Source: Candidatus Zambryskibacteria bacterium RIFCSPLOWO2_01_FULL_39_39 (GTDB lineage: Bacteria; Patescibacteriota; Minisyncoccia; Phycocordibacterales; WO2-35-19). Taken from it: a stretch of DNA of 35,765 nucleotides. The stretch lies in the NCBI GenBank assembly GCA_001823925.1, contig MHWB01000001.1, forward strand, positions 1 to 35,765. Direction: 5' to 3'. Both the position numbers and the translations under genes were made by a program. Under the pieces are notes generated by a model. It had not been told where the DNA came from and did not search any database. It saw nothing but the letters and a program-made list of their open reading frames with translations. Position 1 is the first letter of the stretch. The number at the start of each line of letters is the position of its first letter. Shown piece by piece: positions 3,826 through 28,394 of the stretch.

Positions 3826-5964
3826 ATGAATTTTAAGATTAAAAGAGATTTTGAGCCAGCTGGTGACCAACCACAAGCGATTAAAAAGTTGGTGGAAGGT
3901 GTCAAAAAAGGTCTGAAACATCAGACTCTTTTGGGCGTGACCGGCAGTGGCAAGACTTTTACGGTGGCAAACGTTATCCAAGAAATTCAAAAACCGACAT
4001 TGGTTATCGCTCACAACAAAACATTGGCCGCCCAGCTGGCTCAGGAGTATCGAGAGTTTTTTCCCCAAAATGCCGTTCATTATTTTGTCTCATACTACGA
4101 CTACTACCAGCCGGAGGCTTATATGCCAGTCTCGGATACCTATATAGAAAAGGAAGCTATGATAAATGCGGAGATAGAACGTCTTCGGCACGCCTCTACC
4201 CAAGCACTCTTGACTCGCAAAGATGTGATTATTGTGGCCTCTGTCTCTTGTATTTATGGTCTAGGGTCGCCTTTGGAGTATGAAAAAGTAAATTTAAAAA
4301 TTAAAAAAGGTGATGATATTTCTCGAGCGGATTTTATCAGGAAGCTTATCGGCATCCATTTTGAAAGAACTTCAGCGGATTTGTCGCCGGGGCAATTTAG
4401 AGTGGTTGGTAACATAATAGAAATAATGCCGGTCTCGGAAAAGGTAGTTTATAGATTAGATATTTCAGATAATAAAATTGAAAGAATACAAAAAATAAAT
4501 GCAATTAGCAGAAGTATTTTAGAAGAAATAGAAGTATTATTCCTTTTTCCGGCGAAACATTTTATTTCTACTAAAGAGCAAAGTGAAAAAGCTTTCAAAA
4601 CTATCAAGGCGGAGCTCGCTTTGCGACTCAAACAATTTGAAAAAGAAGGAAAACTTTTGGAAGCAGAGAGACTCAAAAGACGCACCACCTATGATTTGGC
4701 TCTTATCCGCGAGATGGGGTATTGCAATGGCATTGAAAATTATTCTAGGCACTTTTCCGGCAAGCTTCCCGGTGAAGCGCCGGACACTTTGCTTTCGTAT
4801 TTTGGTTCGGATTTTATGACAATAATAGACGAGTCTCATGTGACCGTGCCACAAATAGGCGCGATGCATGCGGGGGACGAATCACGCAAACAGTCCCTGG
4901 TTGATTTTGGCTTTCGTCTACCAAGCGCCAAAGACAACAGACCTCTCAAATTTAAAGAATTTGAAGAGCGAGTTGGTCAAGTGATTTATACCAGCGCGAC
5001 TCCGGGCAAATATGAACTTGAAAAAAGTGGTTCAACGTCAAGTATTGGGCAAATGGTAGAGCAGGTGATACGCCCAACCGGCCTCATTGATCCGGAGATT
5101 TTGGTAAGACCGATTATTGAAAGTAAAATAACTCACCCCAACCCCTCTCTTACATTAAGAGAGGGGCGCGAACATTTAGAATCTAATTTTTCTGGTTCCC
5201 CCCTTAAGATAAGGGGGGCTAGGGGGGTTATGAAAAAAGATAAAGGTTACCCAGGTCAAATTGCGGATTTTATTATTGAGACAGAAAAAAATATCAAAGC
5301 TGGTGGCAGAGTCATCGCAACTACGCTCACCAAAAAAATGGCAGAAGATTTGTCAGAATATTTAAAAGAAAAGGGGATCAAAGCAGAGTATTTACATAGT
5401 GATATTAAAACCATTGAACGTATTGAAATACTCACAAATTTACGTAGAGGCACATTTGATTGTTTAGTGGGAGTAAATTTGCTTCGAGAGGGTTTAGACT
5501 TGCCGGAGGTAACTCTCATTGGTATTTTGGACGCTGATAAAGAAGGTTTTTTGCGCTCCGACACTTCCTTAATTCAAATCATTGGGCGAGCGGCTCGCAA
5601 TGTGCTTGGTAAAGTGATTTTGTATGCTGACACCGTGACCGGCTCTATGGAGCGGGCGATCAGCGAGACAAATCGTCGTCGTAGTATCCAAATCGCCCAC
5701 AACAAAAAACATGGGATTACTCCAAAAACTATTATAAAGAAAATTCAAGATATCACAGACCAACTTCGGAGCGATCATGAAAAGGCGGTGGCGGAACTTG
5801 TAAATATAGATAAAAATATTTTTGAAAAAGATACTAAAAAATTGAAAAAACTTATTACACAGAAAGAAAAACAAATGGAAGGCTCAGTAAAAATCTTAGA
5901 TTTTGAAACTGCCGCTCTATTGCGGGATGAGATTGAAGAACTTGAAAAATTGAAGATAAAATAA
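3826..5964 (+). CDS. uvrB: Excinuclease ABC subunit B
   Basis: A 712-residue UvrB, the helicase-like damage verifier of nucleotide excision repair; with UvrA it loads on lesions and then recruits UvrC. Visible motifs: RDFEPAGDQPQAI at the N-terminus, Walker A GVTGSGKT (37-44), the beta-hairpin region YYQPEAYMP, DEAD-type box IIDESH, TSATPG, helicase motifs TTLTKKMAEDL, GVNLLREGLDLPEV and IGRAARN, and a C-terminal UVR helix pair (FETAALLRDEIEEL) for UvrC or UvrA contact. I start at 3826 (MNFKIKRDFEPAG); an in-frame ATG at 3754 would add 24 residues derived from the repeat. No ribosome binding site is visible. Residues about 431-472 are an insertion absent from ordinary UvrB (VRPI to KGYPGQI). 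Confidence 0.97.
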   Translation: MNFKIKRDFEPAGDQPQAIKKLVEGVKKGLKHQTLLGVTGSGKTFTVANVIQEIQKPTLVIAHNKTLAAQLAQEYREFFPQNAVHYFVSYYDYYQPEAYMPVSDTYIEKEAMINAEIERLRHASTQALLTRKDVIIVASVSCIYGLGSPLEYEKVNLKIKKGDDISRADFIRKLIGIHFERTSADLSPGQFRVVGNIIEIMPVSEKVVYRLDISDNKIERIQKINAISRSILEEIEVLFLFPAKHFISTKEQSEKAFKTIKAELALRLKQFEKEGKLLEAERLKRRTTYDLALIREMGYCNGIENYSRHFSGKLPGEAPDTLLSYFGSDFMTIIDESHVTVPQIGAMHAGDESRKQSLVDFGFRLPSAKDNRPLKFKEFEERVGQVIYTSATPGKYELEKSGSTSSIGQMVEQVIRPTGLIDPEILVRPIIESKITHPNPSLTLREGREHLESNFSGSPLKIRGARGVMKKDKGYPGQIADFIIETEKNIKAGGRVIATTLTKKMAEDLSEYLKEKGIKAEYLHSDIKTIERIEILTNLRRGTFDCLVGVNLLREGLDLPEVTLIGILDADKEGFLRSDTSLIQIIGRAARNVLGKVILYADTVTGSMERAISETNRRRSIQIAHNKKHGITPKTIIKKIQDITDQLRSDHEKAVAELVNIDKNIFEKDTKKLKKLITQKEKQMEGSVKILDFETAALLRDEIEELEKLKIK
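5142..5218. repeat. Two palindromes inserted in frame in uvrB
   Basis: First palindrome: CCCCTCTCTT (5142-5151), 5-base loop, AAGAGAGGGG (5157-5166). Second: CCCCCCTT (5198-5205), 5-base loop, AAGGGGGG (5211-5218). The preceding ACCCCAA and the following CTAGGGGGG belong to the same type of repeat. They encode about 40 low-complexity residues (THPNPSLTLREGRE, then SGSPLKIRGARG) at a point where other UvrB proteins have a short linker. The frame is kept. Confidence 0.85.
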
Positions 5965-9299: not shown

Positions 9300-10667
9300 A
9301 TGGCTCAAAATAAAGATATAAAAAAAATAATTTCTAAATTACCAGATACGCCCGGGGTGTATTTATTTCTCGGCACGTCGAAGCGTGGTGAAGGCGGCTT
9401 ACGTAAGAAAAAAGTTTTATATGTCGGTAAAGCGACTTCGCTTCGTGATCGAGTCAGGAGTTATTTTAATCAAGATATTGTAAATACACGAAGTCCGCTG
9501 ATTTCTAAAATGCTCTCAGAATTTGATGAAATAGAATACATAAAAACAGATTCAGTCTTGGAAGCGCTTGTTTTGGAGGCAAACCTCATCAAAAAATTAG
9601 AGCCCGAGGCGAACATAAAAGAAAAAGATAATCGCAGTTTTAATTTTGTCGTTATTACCAATGAAGAGTTCCCTCGGGTTTTGACAATGCGAGGCAGAGA
9701 GCTTGAAGAGTCAAGGTTGAACCTTGACATAAAAATAAAATATAAATTTGGACCATTTCCAAACGGAAGTCAGCTTAAAGAGGCCATGAAAATTGTACGC
9801 AAAATGTTTCCTTTTAGGGATAAATGTATTCCATCACTAAACCCCTTAATTCCCTCCCCAAAGGGTAGGGGAAAACAGATATCGGACACTTCTTCTTTCC
9901 CCCCATCCCCTTTGGGGAGGGGGCAGGGGGTGGGGTGTTTTAATCGCCAGATTGGGCTCTGTCCGGGTGTCTGTACTGGTGATATATCTCAAATAGAATA
10001 TGCCAAACAAATCCAAAATATCATTTTATTTTTTGAAAGTAATAAACAAAAATTGATTAAGAATTTGGGAAAACAGATGAAAGATTTCGCTAAAGCCCGC
10101 GAATTTGAAAAAGCTCAAAAAATTAAAAAAACATTATTTACCCTAAGTCATATTCAAGACATTTCTTTGATAAAAGATCAAGTGTCAAAGGGCGCCTTTG
10201 ACACTAAAAATTTTAGGATAGAAAGTTATGACGTTGCACATTTATCAGGGACGAATATGGTGGGGGTTATGACAGTAGTGGAAAATAGAGAAGTTAAAAA
10301 ATCTGATTATAGAAAATTTAAAATCAAATATAATTCAGGAGTAAACGACATAAAAGCGCTTTCCGAAATCCTCACTCGTCGCTTGGTGCACAAAGAATGG
10401 CCGATGCCAAATCTTTTTGTGGTAGATGGTGGGTTGGCGCAAAAAAGGGCAATAGAGAAAGTTTTAAGAGAAAACGGGGTACAAACACCGACCGTCTCAG
10501 TGGTCAAAAATGAAAGGCATAAACCCAAAGAAATTTTGGCAGATCGCGGGGCTTTGCTCACGAAAGGTAAAAAATGGTCTCAACTGGAGAGAGAAATTTT
10601 ACTCTCAAACTCAGAGGCGCACCGATTTGCTCTGAGTTTCCACAAACAGCTTCGCAGAAAATTTTAA
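9300..10667 (+). CDS. uvrC: Excinuclease ABC subunit C, short form
   Basis: A 455-residue UvrC, the nuclease that makes both incisions in nucleotide excision repair. N-terminal GIY-YIG domain: LPDTPGVYLFL, KVLYVGKATSLRDRVRSYF and NLIKKLEPEANI. A UVR motif (EFEKAQKIKKTLFTL) contacts UvrB. The C-terminal RNase H-like nuclease shows YDVAHLSG, VVDGG and NSEAHRFALSFH. E. coli UvrC has 610 residues; the tandem helix-hairpin-helix domain is absent here and the protein ends just after the nuclease. Two in-frame inserts are visible: SRLNLDI at about 138-144, just before YKFGPFPNG, and about 30 Pro/Gly-rich residues between DKCIP and CFNRQIGLCPG. It is predicted leaderless. Confidence 0.95.
   Translation: MAQNKDIKKIISKLPDTPGVYLFLGTSKRGEGGLRKKKVLYVGKATSLRDRVRSYFNQDIVNTRSPLISKMLSEFDEIEYIKTDSVLEALVLEANLIKKLEPEANIKEKDNRSFNFVVITNEEFPRVLTMRGRELEESRLNLDIKIKYKFGPFPNGSQLKEAMKIVRKMFPFRDKCIPSLNPLIPSPKGRGKQISDTSSFPPSPLGRGQGVGCFNRQIGLCPGVCTGDISQIEYAKQIQNIILFFESNKQKLIKNLGKQMKDFAKAREFEKAQKIKKTLFTLSHIQDISLIKDQVSKGAFDTKNFRIESYDVAHLSGTNMVGVMTVVENREVKKSDYRKFKIKYNSGVNDIKALSEILTRRLVHKEWPMPNLFVVDGGLAQKRAIEKVLRENGVQTPTVSVVKNERHKPKEILADRGALLTKGKKWSQLEREILLSNSEAHRFALSFHKQLRRKF
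9710..9728. repeat. Transposase-type 19-bp palindrome inside uvrC
   Basis: GTCAAGGTT, one central base, AACCTTGAC, followed by ATAAAA. The arms are identical to those of the palindromes at 14284-14306 and 14949-14971 around the tyrosine transposase. The ATAAAA that follows is shared with the 14284 copy. It encodes SRLNLDI, the same residues as the transposase's own C-terminus. Confidence 0.9.
9852..9921. repeat. Second palindromic insert in uvrC
   Basis: CCCTCCCCAAAGGG (9852-9865) is the exact inverse of 9908-9921, with weaker pairing continuing inward (TAGGGG with CCCCAT). It encodes LIPSPKGRGKQISD and then SFPPSPLGRGQGVG, placed between DKCIP and the conserved CFNRQIGLCPG segment. The frame is kept. 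Confidence 0.85.
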
Positions 10668-14279: not shown

Positions 14280-14927
14280 TTAAATGTCAAGGTTCAACCT
14301 TGACATAAAATCTTTGTTCTTAAGAGCCAAAGTTTGTTTAATAAGATTTTCTTTATTTTCAAAAATATCAACAATAAAATCTTTGTAAATTATTGGTAAA
14401 TTTCTGTCCCTTATATAGTCATTGTAACTACTCCAGTCGTATTCTTCTGGTCTAGTAACCAGATTGCTTTTAACTGGATTCATATGAATGTAAGATGTGG
14501 TCCAAATAAGTTGCGGATTTGATTCTATTGGAACAGATTTGAAATTACCTTGAAATAAATGACCAACTCTTTTGTATTTTTTATTTATATACATTGAAAA
14601 ACTAGTGCAAATTTTTTGTATCAATAAAGATATTGAGACGTTAGATTTTTGCTCGATAAGTAAATGGAAATGGTTCGGCATAAGACAAAATGAGTGCAAC
14701 TTAAAAAGATCACCAGGGGATTTGGTTATCCTCACTCGTGATTTCGGAGATTGGGTCATGCCATTTTTATTTAAGTCATCCGATTTTATTCCAATTGCAA
14801 GACCTAATCTATAAAGAAAAGCTTTATAATCCTGTTTATCGCGAAATAAATTTTCTTTATTTGTGCCCCTGTTGTAAACATGGTAGATTTCTTTTTCTGA
14901 GAAGTTTTTGAAATCTCTTTTTTGCAT
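14280..14927 (-). CDS. REP-associated tyrosine transposase (Y1, HUH family)
   Basis: A 215-residue Y1 transposase. EIYHVYNRGTNKENLF opens the domain, the HUH metal motif is HFH in CLMPNHFHLLIE (His86, His88), and the likely catalytic Tyr is Tyr113 in SMYINKKYKRVGHLFQG. GNFKS, then YIHMNPVKSNL and YDWSSYNDY complete the RAYT pattern. Such enzymes nick single-stranded DNA at palindromic repeats via a 5'-phosphotyrosine. Palindromes lie on both sides of the gene. The downstream one forms the gene's own last codons (MSRLNLDI and stop). The segment between the N-terminal strand and the HUH strand (MTQSPKSRVRITKSPGD) is longer than usual. No partner tnpB is present. Confidence 0.9.
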   Translation of the reverse strand: MQKRDFKNFSEKEIYHVYNRGTNKENLFRDKQDYKAFLYRLGLAIGIKSDDLNKNGMTQSPKSRVRITKSPGDLFKLHSFCLMPNHFHLLIEQKSNVSISLLIQKICTSFSMYINKKYKRVGHLFQGNFKSVPIESNPQLIWTTSYIHMNPVKSNLVTRPEEYDWSSYNDYIRDRNLPIIYKDFIVDIFENKENLIKQTLALKNKDFMSRLNLDI

Positions 14928-14971
14928 ATAAATATTTTATAATATTTAATGTCAAGGTTCAACCTTGACAT
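14284..14971. mobile_element. RAYT element bounded by identical 23-bp palindromes
   Basis: Identical 23-base palindromes at 14284-14306 and 14949-14971 (AT, then GTCAAGGTT-C-AACCTTGAC, then AT) bracket the transposase gene. Apart from one central base each is perfectly symmetric, and both copies have the same central base on the plus strand. Both ends of each palindrome read CCTTGACA outward, so each carries -35-like TTGACA hexamers on both strands. Confidence 0.8.
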
Positions 14972-16339: not shown

Positions 16340-16364
16340 CCCCTCTCCTTGCGAAGGAGAGGGG
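16340..16364. repeat. Intergenic palindrome, relative of the uvrB insert
   Basis: CCCCTCTCCTT (16340-16350), GCG loop, AAGGAGAGGGG (16354-16364), preceded by AACCCCGA. It has nearly the same arms and left flank as the first uvrB insert. No T-run follows, so it is not an ordinary terminator. Confidence 0.75.
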
Positions 16365-27119: not shown

Positions 27120-28394
27120 ATGGGAAAAAAAGGAAAAAGAGTGTTTTTAGATTATGCTTCTATTACACCCGTTGATTCTAAAGTAGAAGAAGAAATGAGA
27201 AAAGTCCAAAAAAAGTTTTGGGCAAATCCTTCTTCTTTACACACAGAAGGTGAGGAAGCCAAAACCTTATTGGAGGAAGCGAGGATAAATATCGCTCGGG
27301 TTTTGCGTTGTCGTGGGAGCGAATTATTTTTTACTAGTGGTGGTACCGAGTCTTTAAACATCGCCATTTTAGGTGTTTTGAAAAGCCAAGGACAGTTTTT
27401 CCAAGGGTCACCCTTGAAGACCCTTGCCCCAAAGGGTGACCCTTTAATCCTGCCCCATATTATAGTGGGAGCGATAGAGCATCCAGCAGTTTTAGAACCA
27501 ATAAAATTTTTATTAAAGAATAAAGAGGTGGAAGTTTCTTTTATTTACCCTGACCGAAGTGGAAGGATAAATCCTGAATCAATAAAAAAAGAAATAAAAG
27601 AAAATACTATTTTAGTTATAGTCCAACATGCCAATAATGAAATTGGCACTATAGAACCTATCCAAAAAATTTCTCGCATAATTAAAGAATTTAAGCAAAA
27701 AAATAATTTTAAATATCCATATTTTCTGGTAGATGCTAGTCAAAGCGCTCTTTATGAAGATGTCTCTTTGGAGCGACTGGGGGCGGACTTGCTTGTTTTG
27801 GACGGTATCAAAATCTATGGGCCGAGGGGGATGGGACTTTTGGCAGTCAAACATGGGGTTTCAATCTCCCCGATTGTTTTTGGTGGGGGACAGGAAGGCG
27901 GTTTGAGATCGGGAACAGAAAATGTGGCCGGTGCAGTTGGCCTCGCCAAGGCTTTGGAGATAGCAATGAAAATGAGAGAAAAAGAATCACTGCGCCTAAC
28001 GCGATTACGCGACTATTCTATTACCAAAATTATTAAAGAAATTCCAAACGCTTCTTTAAATGGCGGTTTAGAAAACCGTTTGCCTAATAATATAAATGTA
28101 TGTTTTGGTTCTGGTCCCAGAGGACTGCCCTTGAAGGATTTTGCCCCAAAGGGCAGTCCTCAAAGTAACCCTTTAGATTCCGAATTCCTAGTCATTAAAT
28201 TAGATACTTTGGGTTTTGCAGTCTCGGCTGCTTCGGCGTGTCATACTCTTTCGCTGGAAAATGGCTCTTACGTTATTGAAAGTCTGGGAAGGTCTGAGTG
28301 TGCTTCTTCTTCTCTGCGTATTACTTTGGGTCGCGATAGCAAAAAATCTGATTTAGATAAATTTATCTCTGCTCTAAAAAAAGTTATTAAATAA
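27120..28394 (+). CDS. Cysteine desulfurase, NifS/IscS-like
   Basis: A 424-residue class V PLP aminotransferase that takes sulfur from cysteine for Fe-S clusters or tRNA thiolation. Motifs: FLDYASITPVD at the start, FTSGGTESLNIAIL, VQHANNEIGTIEPI, LVDASQS, DGIKIYGPRG with the PLP Lys, GGGQEGGLRSGTENV, catalytic Cys in AASACHTLS, and SSLRITLG. Two in-frame inserts of the same kind are visible: residues about 95-108 (QGSPLKTLAPKGDPL) and 334-347 (RGLPLKDFAPKGSPQ). Neither occurs in ordinary NifS/IscS. No scaffold gene is nearby. Confidence 0.9.
   Translation: MGKKGKRVFLDYASITPVDSKVEEEMRKVQKKFWANPSSLHTEGEEAKTLLEEARINIARVLRCRGSELFFTSGGTESLNIAILGVLKSQGQFFQGSPLKTLAPKGDPLILPHIIVGAIEHPAVLEPIKFLLKNKEVEVSFIYPDRSGRINPESIKKEIKENTILVIVQHANNEIGTIEPIQKISRIIKEFKQKNNFKYPYFLVDASQSALYEDVSLERLGADLLVLDGIKIYGPRGMGLLAVKHGVSISPIVFGGGQEGGLRSGTENVAGAVGLAKALEIAMKMREKESLRLTRLRDYSITKIIKEIPNASLNGGLENRLPNNINVCFGSGPRGLPLKDFAPKGSPQSNPLDSEFLVIKLDTLGFAVSAASACHTLSLENGSYVIESLGRSECASSSLRITLGRDSKKSDLDKFISALKKVIK
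27403..27444. repeat. Palindromic insert 1 in the cysteine desulfurase gene
   Basis: AAGGGTCACCCTT (27403-27415), 16-base loop, AAGGGTGACCCTT (27432-27444). The arms are perfectly complementary over 13 bases, and each arm is itself nearly palindromic. It encodes GSPLKTLAPKGDPL; frame kept. Confidence 0.88.
28121..28160. repeat. Palindromic insert 2 in the cysteine desulfurase gene
   Basis: AGGACTGCCCTT (28121-28132), 16-base loop, AAGGGCAGTCCT (28149-28160): perfect 12-base arms. It shares with insert 1 CCCTTGAAG, 16-base loop length and TTGCCCCAAAGGG. The outer arm bases differ but co-vary, so pairing is kept. It encodes GLPLKDFAPKGSPQ. Confidence 0.9.

Follow-up and report, generated by a model that had tools for sequence, protein, structure and literature searches.

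In-frame hairpin elements in a cysteine desulfurase gene of Candidatus Zambryskibacteria, members of a candidate REPIN-like family

Introduction

REPINs are inverted pairs of REP palindromes that form a hairpin. In the literature they are extragenic, their REPs are conserved and their spacers less so, and E. coli carries 69–235 copies. Compensatory changes between the arms have been called common (PMC3116915). REPs tagged with GTAG or CGTC are also found in frame inside genes of Opitutus terrae, Rickettsia conorii and other bacteria, both singly and as dimers; they encode 20–30 residues and favour genes for DNA synthesis and repair, among them uvrA, DNA ligase and tRNA synthetases (PMC3733652). 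A survey of the HuH superfamily describes a RAYT subclass, 2.4, with frequent REP insertions in coding sequence, inside the transposase gene itself (PMC6006769). Rickettsia palindromic elements (RPEs) are larger, ~150 bp (PMC10969869). In the open-access literature we found no paper that links RAYT/REPIN-type elements to Patescibacteria.

Here we describe two hairpin elements in a cysteine desulfurase gene of Candidatus Zambryskibacteria, in a stretch of 35,765 nucleotides (the window) from a 0.8-Mb genome (G000). They resemble REPINs in build, and they lie inside a gene.

Results

Two hairpins in a cysteine desulfurase gene

The features of the locus are the following.

27120–28394, + strand: NifS/IscS-like cysteine desulfurase gene, 424 aa, host of elements 1 and 2 (PF00266, E=8e-50)
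27403–27444, + strand: element 1 hairpin, arms AAGGGTCACCCTT/AAGGGTGACCCTT, loop GAAGACCCTTGCCCCA (66.3 bits, covariance model R1)
28120–28161, + strand: element 2 hairpin, arms GAGGACTGCCCTT/AAGGGCAGTCCTC, loop GAAGGATTTTGCCCCA (65.0 bits, covariance model R1)
27381–27400, + strand: putative left-arm remnant AAAAGCCAAGGACAGTTTTT (bases AAAAGCCAAGGACAG) before element 1 (DNA comparison at site 1)

By Pfam and NCBIfam the gene product belongs to the class V aminotransferases and is NifS/IscS-like; the top NCBIfam match, FeS_nifS, scores 292.8 bits and does not reach its cut-off of 530.75. The original prediction described two palindromes of the same layout in this gene, with compensating differences in their outer arms and an in-frame PLKxxAPKG reading, and the sequence agrees on each point. 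Both elements have 13-bp arms without mismatch, 16-nt loops and the common core CCCTTGAAG....TTGCCCCAAAGGG, the outer-arm differences compensate each other, and both inserts are read as PLKxxAPKG within the single 424-aa ORF. The window contains 17 strong hairpins compared to ~0.7 per dinucleotide shuffle, and the two elements fold 3.7–4.7 standard deviations more stably than their own shuffles (z –3.7 to –4.7, as DNA or RNA), so they are not products of chance. Rfam has no family at either element.

The desulfurase is present in 59 of 60 related genomes. In the alignment, the orthologues of congeners G001, G002, G003 and G006 and of G008 are shorter at site 1 and/or site 2, and all length differences between orthologues are multiples of 3 nt, which keeps the frame. 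Elements 1 and 2 are therefore insertions. That several close orthologues have no such segments also disposes of ancient, conserved protein loops without palindromic DNA. Relatives of the elements occur at site 1 in G004 and G005, and in G005 also at site 2; the site 1 element was probably acquired before G000, G004 and G005 separated. Judging from the DNA, AAAAGCCAAGGACAGTTTTT/AAAAGCCAAGGACAG upstream of element 1 is probably the remnant of a lost second element in the opposite orientation; in G004 and G005 a second, oppositely oriented element is intact just before the element 1 site, with the two elements adjacent. Other palindromes occupy the same or nearby desulfurase loops in several congeners. 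Another in-frame palindrome, CCCGCCCGCC..GGCGGG, is common to two congeners at one site in the C-terminal region and represents a further family. The desulfurase of G053 likewise has loop inserts.

Whether both inserts fall in surface loops had been proposed as a check, and the AlphaFold model (pLDDT 86) places them in predicted disordered surface loops between ordered secondary structure. The element 1 insert lies between helix 75–89 and strand 113–117, with residues 93–105 at pLDDT below 50, and the element 2 insert between strand 324–329 and helix 354–363, with residues 332–344 and 346–351 below 50. The rest of the model is close to A. fulgidus IscS (4eb5, TM 0.82/0.92).

A dispersed family of inverted doublets

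The exact core occurs only twice in the G000 genome, both times in the desulfurase gene, and a search of 148 genomes returned desulfurase copies only. In a named genome collection the core also matched Collinsella, Yoonia, Thalassobaculum and Dyadobacter, which may be chance. A hairpin search in sampled G000 stretches found a third copy with the same loop and a different stem, between secY and adk (names read from translation). For the family search we built a covariance model from nine copies that allows stem changes. It reveals 18 distinct copies in G000, 24 in G005, 13 in G007 and 8 in G004; G001 and G003 have a single copy each, and G002 and G006 have no copy. The census is based on searches and sampled genome stretches with distinct places counted by hand, since many copies are reported on both strands owing to the symmetric stem. 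G000, G005, G007 and G004 may form one clade (support 72/80). The covariance-model search in related genomes that had been proposed thus locates copies scattered over four genomes of the genus, and the original prediction of an element family that conserves pairing rather than sequence is supported; hairpin selection is one explanation of this pattern among three (see Discussion). That first reading did not contain the RAYT link, the doublet build, the other host genes, the 18-copy family or the known intragenic REP-type palindromes.

In an alignment of 45 distinct copies, which was fitted to the stem and is therefore biased in favour of pairing, 99% of stem cells are paired and two-sided changes affect 9 of the 13 pairs. 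We observed 117 two-sided stem cells compared to 31 in shuffles, and slid controls collapse. The loop GAA..TGCCCCA (15–17 nt) is conserved and the stem varies. Approximately half of the copies carry 4–12 extra outer pairs, and the total length ranges from 42 to ~58 nt. The arms are near-palindromes in their own right (AAGGnnnnnCCTT, 89% paired), and we therefore interpret the element as a doublet in which two small palindromes stand in inverted order. A GTAG/CGTC tag at the foot of the palindrome was not found: it lies near the end of 4 of 66 elements, with 9.4 expected at random.

The window also contains members of another, separate family of hairpins, CCCCTCTCCTT-nnn-AAGGAGAGGGG, at 5142–5166, 5198–5218 and 16340–16364; this family recurs in G000 both within and between genes (also loci L037, L038, L041 and L042).

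Host genes and orthologous sites

Read in context, ~41 of the 66 copies lie inside ORFs, 21 in the sense and 20 in the opposite orientation, and across hosts the elements are read in different frames and in either orientation. The hosts encode conserved proteins; those identified by Pfam include lepA, topA, dus, uvrA, recO, folD, tatD, rsmA, ligA, leuS, recG, comEC, tsaD, gatB and miaA; some of these names are our interpretation of domain content. We infer priA as a further host from one Pfam match in G007 and shared flanks. Genes for DNA repair and recombination are prominent among the hosts (ligA, recG, priA, uvrA, uvrC, recO, topA and comEC).

Comparison of orthologues reveals the fate of single sites. 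With the insert, recG gains a net 39 nt in G000, G005 and G007, whereas eight other genomes have no insert; the stems differ among the three carriers, with perfect compensation in two of them. Approximately 12 nt are replaced between filled and empty sites, which are too diverged to define the element ends (target duplication). In G000, recG is split into two overlapping frames with a TGA (G000:C8:43492-45764), owing to a frameshift or an assembly error; it is a single intact gene in congeners. In one loop of ligA, G000 and G005 have one element and G004 and G007 another; G008 has a single unit there, and four other genomes have no element. Species also differ in the direction of the element at one and the same place in priA, dus and leuS, where it occurs in opposite orientations.

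The recG insert is 75–86% identical among G000, G005 and G007, compared to 34–44% at the fourfold sites of the gene. Its codon differences are 5:0, 6:2 and 7:2 nonsynonymous to synonymous, and third positions are the same in 11–15 of 17. The ligA insert is identical at 53/53 positions between G000 and G005, with a fourfold identity of 0.41. Because identity in the inserts is far above that of synonymous sites and the differences are mostly nonsynonymous, it is the nucleotide sequence of the insert, not its peptide, that is preserved or renewed.

Several palindromes are also inserted in uvrC within the window.

9300–10667, + strand: uvrC gene with several in-frame palindromic inserts (PF08459, E=4.6e-31; orthologue alignment)
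9710–9728, unstranded: single unit GTCAAGGTTGAACCTTGAC, in frame in uvrC, the unit that also flanks the transposase (repeat pair 93% alike)
10181–10205, unstranded: single unit AGTGTCAAAGGGCGCCTTTGACACT, in frame in uvrC (uvrC alignment)

The central 21 nt of AGTGTCAAAGGGCGCCTTTGACACT equal the palindrome that flanks a RAYT gene at G000:C2 (reverse complement of ATGTCAAAGGCGCCCTTTGACAT). The uvrC segment PSPKGRGKQISDTSSFPPSPLGRGQGVG is encoded by CCCTCCCCAAAGGG/CCCCTTTGGGGAGGG palindromes (9852–9921); congeners are without it or have it in other forms.

RAYT-like transposases and their flanking palindromes

The window also encodes a transposase with palindromes at both ends of its gene.

14280–14927, – strand: RAYT-like Y1/HUH transposase, 215 aa, NHFH motif (PF01797, 44.4 bits, cut-off 23)
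14284–14306, unstranded: palindrome ATGTCAAGGTTCAACCTTGACAT at the 3' end of the transposase gene
14949–14971, unstranded: palindrome ATGTCAAGGTTGAACCTTGACAT (gene strand) upstream of the transposase gene

Its sole NCBIfam match is REP_Tyr_transpos at 65.3 bits, below the cut-off of 80. There is no PDB match by sequence; by fold the top PDB match is 4er8, a RAYT bound to a REP hairpin (TM 0.56/0.72). Y1/HUH genes of the RAYT kind are present in all congeners (PF01797 above cut-off), with four in G000, one of which is that in the window. Two transposase matches in G003 look like classical IS200.

Of 32 RAYT-like genes, 19 have a perfect palindrome within 130 nt upstream, compared to 35 of 305 other ORFs (P=3e-9); downstream, 14 of 31 have one, compared to 31 of 305 (P=4e-6). 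Element halves match the RAYT-flank units better than their own shuffles do. The flanking palindromes of the genus differ from each other, so a cognate RAYT/element pair is not fixed, and among the RAYTs of the genus we saw none with a complete GAA..TGCCCCA-loop doublet at its flank. Near-direct repeats, the palindrome followed by TGTGGTATAAT, stand on either side of several RAYT genes, as if there were a promoter at each end.

Full inverted doublets of the CAAGG..CCTTG type flank the transposase in three other genera of the order (L209, L210 and L214). This type outnumbers a reversed control pattern by 26 to 3 in G000 and by 41 to 2 in G005, and such palindromes are very abundant in other genera (50 in G053, 35 in G028 and 27 in G031); the phenomenon may be order-wide. 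Among the eight congeners, element number rises with RAYT number (rho 0.80, P=0.018, kinship ignored). Across 60 genomes of the order, single-unit count and Y1 transposase count show no correlation (rho 0.10, P=0.45).

Discussion

This family, with its in-frame insertions in loops, covarying stems and patchy distribution, and with RAYT genes flanked by related units, is best explained as REPIN-like doublets that are mobilised by RAYTs and tolerated in protein loops; we put the probability of this reading at roughly 0.72. The element would be non-autonomous and consist of two short palindromes of type CAAGGnnnnnCCTTG, inverted around a conserved 15–17-nt loop, ~42–58 nt in all, and would form a single hairpin when the DNA is single-stranded. 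RAYT-like Y1/HUH transposases are a class known to recognise single-stranded DNA hairpins, and those of the genus would copy, or once have copied, the units around the genome. An insertion would survive if its length is a multiple of three, it leaves the frame open and it falls in a surface loop of the protein. Coding sequence makes up more than 90% of the genome (sampled in G000), which leaves little free space and would thus restrict insertions to tolerated positions in genes. The desulfurase elements would later have changed their stems, gained or lost neighbours, or been replaced. That RAYTs of the genus move the doublets, and that the insert peptides are tolerated rather than used, is suggested by this pattern. 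The REPIN/RAYT reading is weakened by the lack of a doublet-flanked RAYT in the genus, of the tag and of an order-wide correlation, and by the copy number, 8–24, which is low for REPINs.

The same points would favour RPE-type selfish palindromes moved by another activity, with the RAYTs and their palindromes as a separate, look-alike system: the RAYTs of the genus have no exact flanking doublet, the GTAG tag is absent and the order-wide correlation is missing. However, half-elements match RAYT-flank units, two such units lie in the uvrC gene of the window, and inverted doublets of the same CAAGG..CCTTG build accompany RAYTs in other parts of the order, so we consider this explanation unlikely. 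A bolder form of the mobile reading is that element DNA in repair and housekeeping genes is actively maintained, through hairpin selection or RAYT-guided recopying at the orthologous site already occupied, as a domesticated network that rewrites protein loops. We regard it as similarly doubtful; were it true, the RAYT/hairpin system would perhaps regulate DNA metabolism genes in Patescibacteria.

Perfect and compensated stems may reflect selection on the hairpin, recopying by the transposase, or template switching that repairs the arms. Template switching during replication is a documented mechanism that homogenises arms, inverts spacers and gives multi-base compensated changes (PMC8794818, PMC8604942). 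The hairpins could have grown and been kept in place between inverted repeats by this process, with no transposition. The arms at recG do change in compensated blocks, and the flipped loops at priA, dus and leuS fit such a mechanism, but it is unable to spread one loop to ~18 unrelated places or to create insertions of 39–60 nt. As a full account it is therefore quite improbable; acting on the elements after insertion, it may well have contributed.

Still less probable is a local function of each hairpin in DNA or RNA, such as mRNA stability, pausing or regulation of repair genes, with selection keeping the pairing. The conservation of recG and ligA insert DNA above fourfold sites would agree with it, as would the many DNA repair genes among the hosts, but presence varies between close species, the two orientations are used equally over many sites and genes, and recopying would keep the sequence too. 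Ordinary protein loops with accidentally palindromic codons would give the similar PLKxxAPKG peptides of the two inserts, but are refuted for the window and can be set aside as chance, given the absence of the segments in several orthologues, the use of either orientation and different frames elsewhere, the hairpin z-scores of –3.7 to –4.7 and the covariation. We also rejected RNA-only elements on the 21:20 orientation and intrinsic terminators on the intragenic position of most copies.

In genomes of 0.4–0.8 Mb that are more than 90% coding (as sampled in G000), genes are almost the sole landing space. Related species differ at the same loops of LigA, RecG, PriA and the desulfurase, which may be filled or empty and whose elements may be flipped or re-stemmed, so selection, recopying and template switching as sources of perfect arms become directly addressable. 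Apparent insertions in Patescibacterial proteins can be mobile DNA and not adaptive domains.

Comparison with known systems

The preferred reading, RAYT-mobilised doublets, places the elements close to REPINs, with which they share an inverted palindrome pair forming a hairpin, frequent compensatory changes and palindrome-flanked RAYT genes. A RAYT is present in the genome, a transposase gene is flanked by the units, and inverted doublets are dispersed. In contrast to literature REPINs, the loop is conserved and the arms vary, ~60% of copies are intragenic, and copies number 8–24 per genome. The elements work like REPINs; we do not file them as classical GTAG or CGTC REPs, because the foot tag, which defines those REPs, is missing and the location is mainly intragenic.

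Like RPEs, they are palindromes in frame in protein genes at apparently tolerated positions, but they measure 42–58 nt and have linked RAYT genes; they are set apart by the description of RPEs, and the CGTC tag was sought and is absent. The transposases resemble RAYT subclass 2.4 in two motifs, NH[IFV]H and one like YIxNNP (YIHxNP here); the sequence is remote. With the intragenic REPs of Opitutus terrae, Rickettsia conorii and others the elements share in-frame insertion of single units and dimers, two inserts in one gene and a bias to repair and tRNA synthetase genes. Intragenic REPs that favour repair genes were already known in other phyla. What is new here is the Patescibacterial setting, the missing GTAG/CGTC tag, and orthologous loops that are filled, flipped or rewritten in their stems across species while their DNA is kept far better than synonymous sites.
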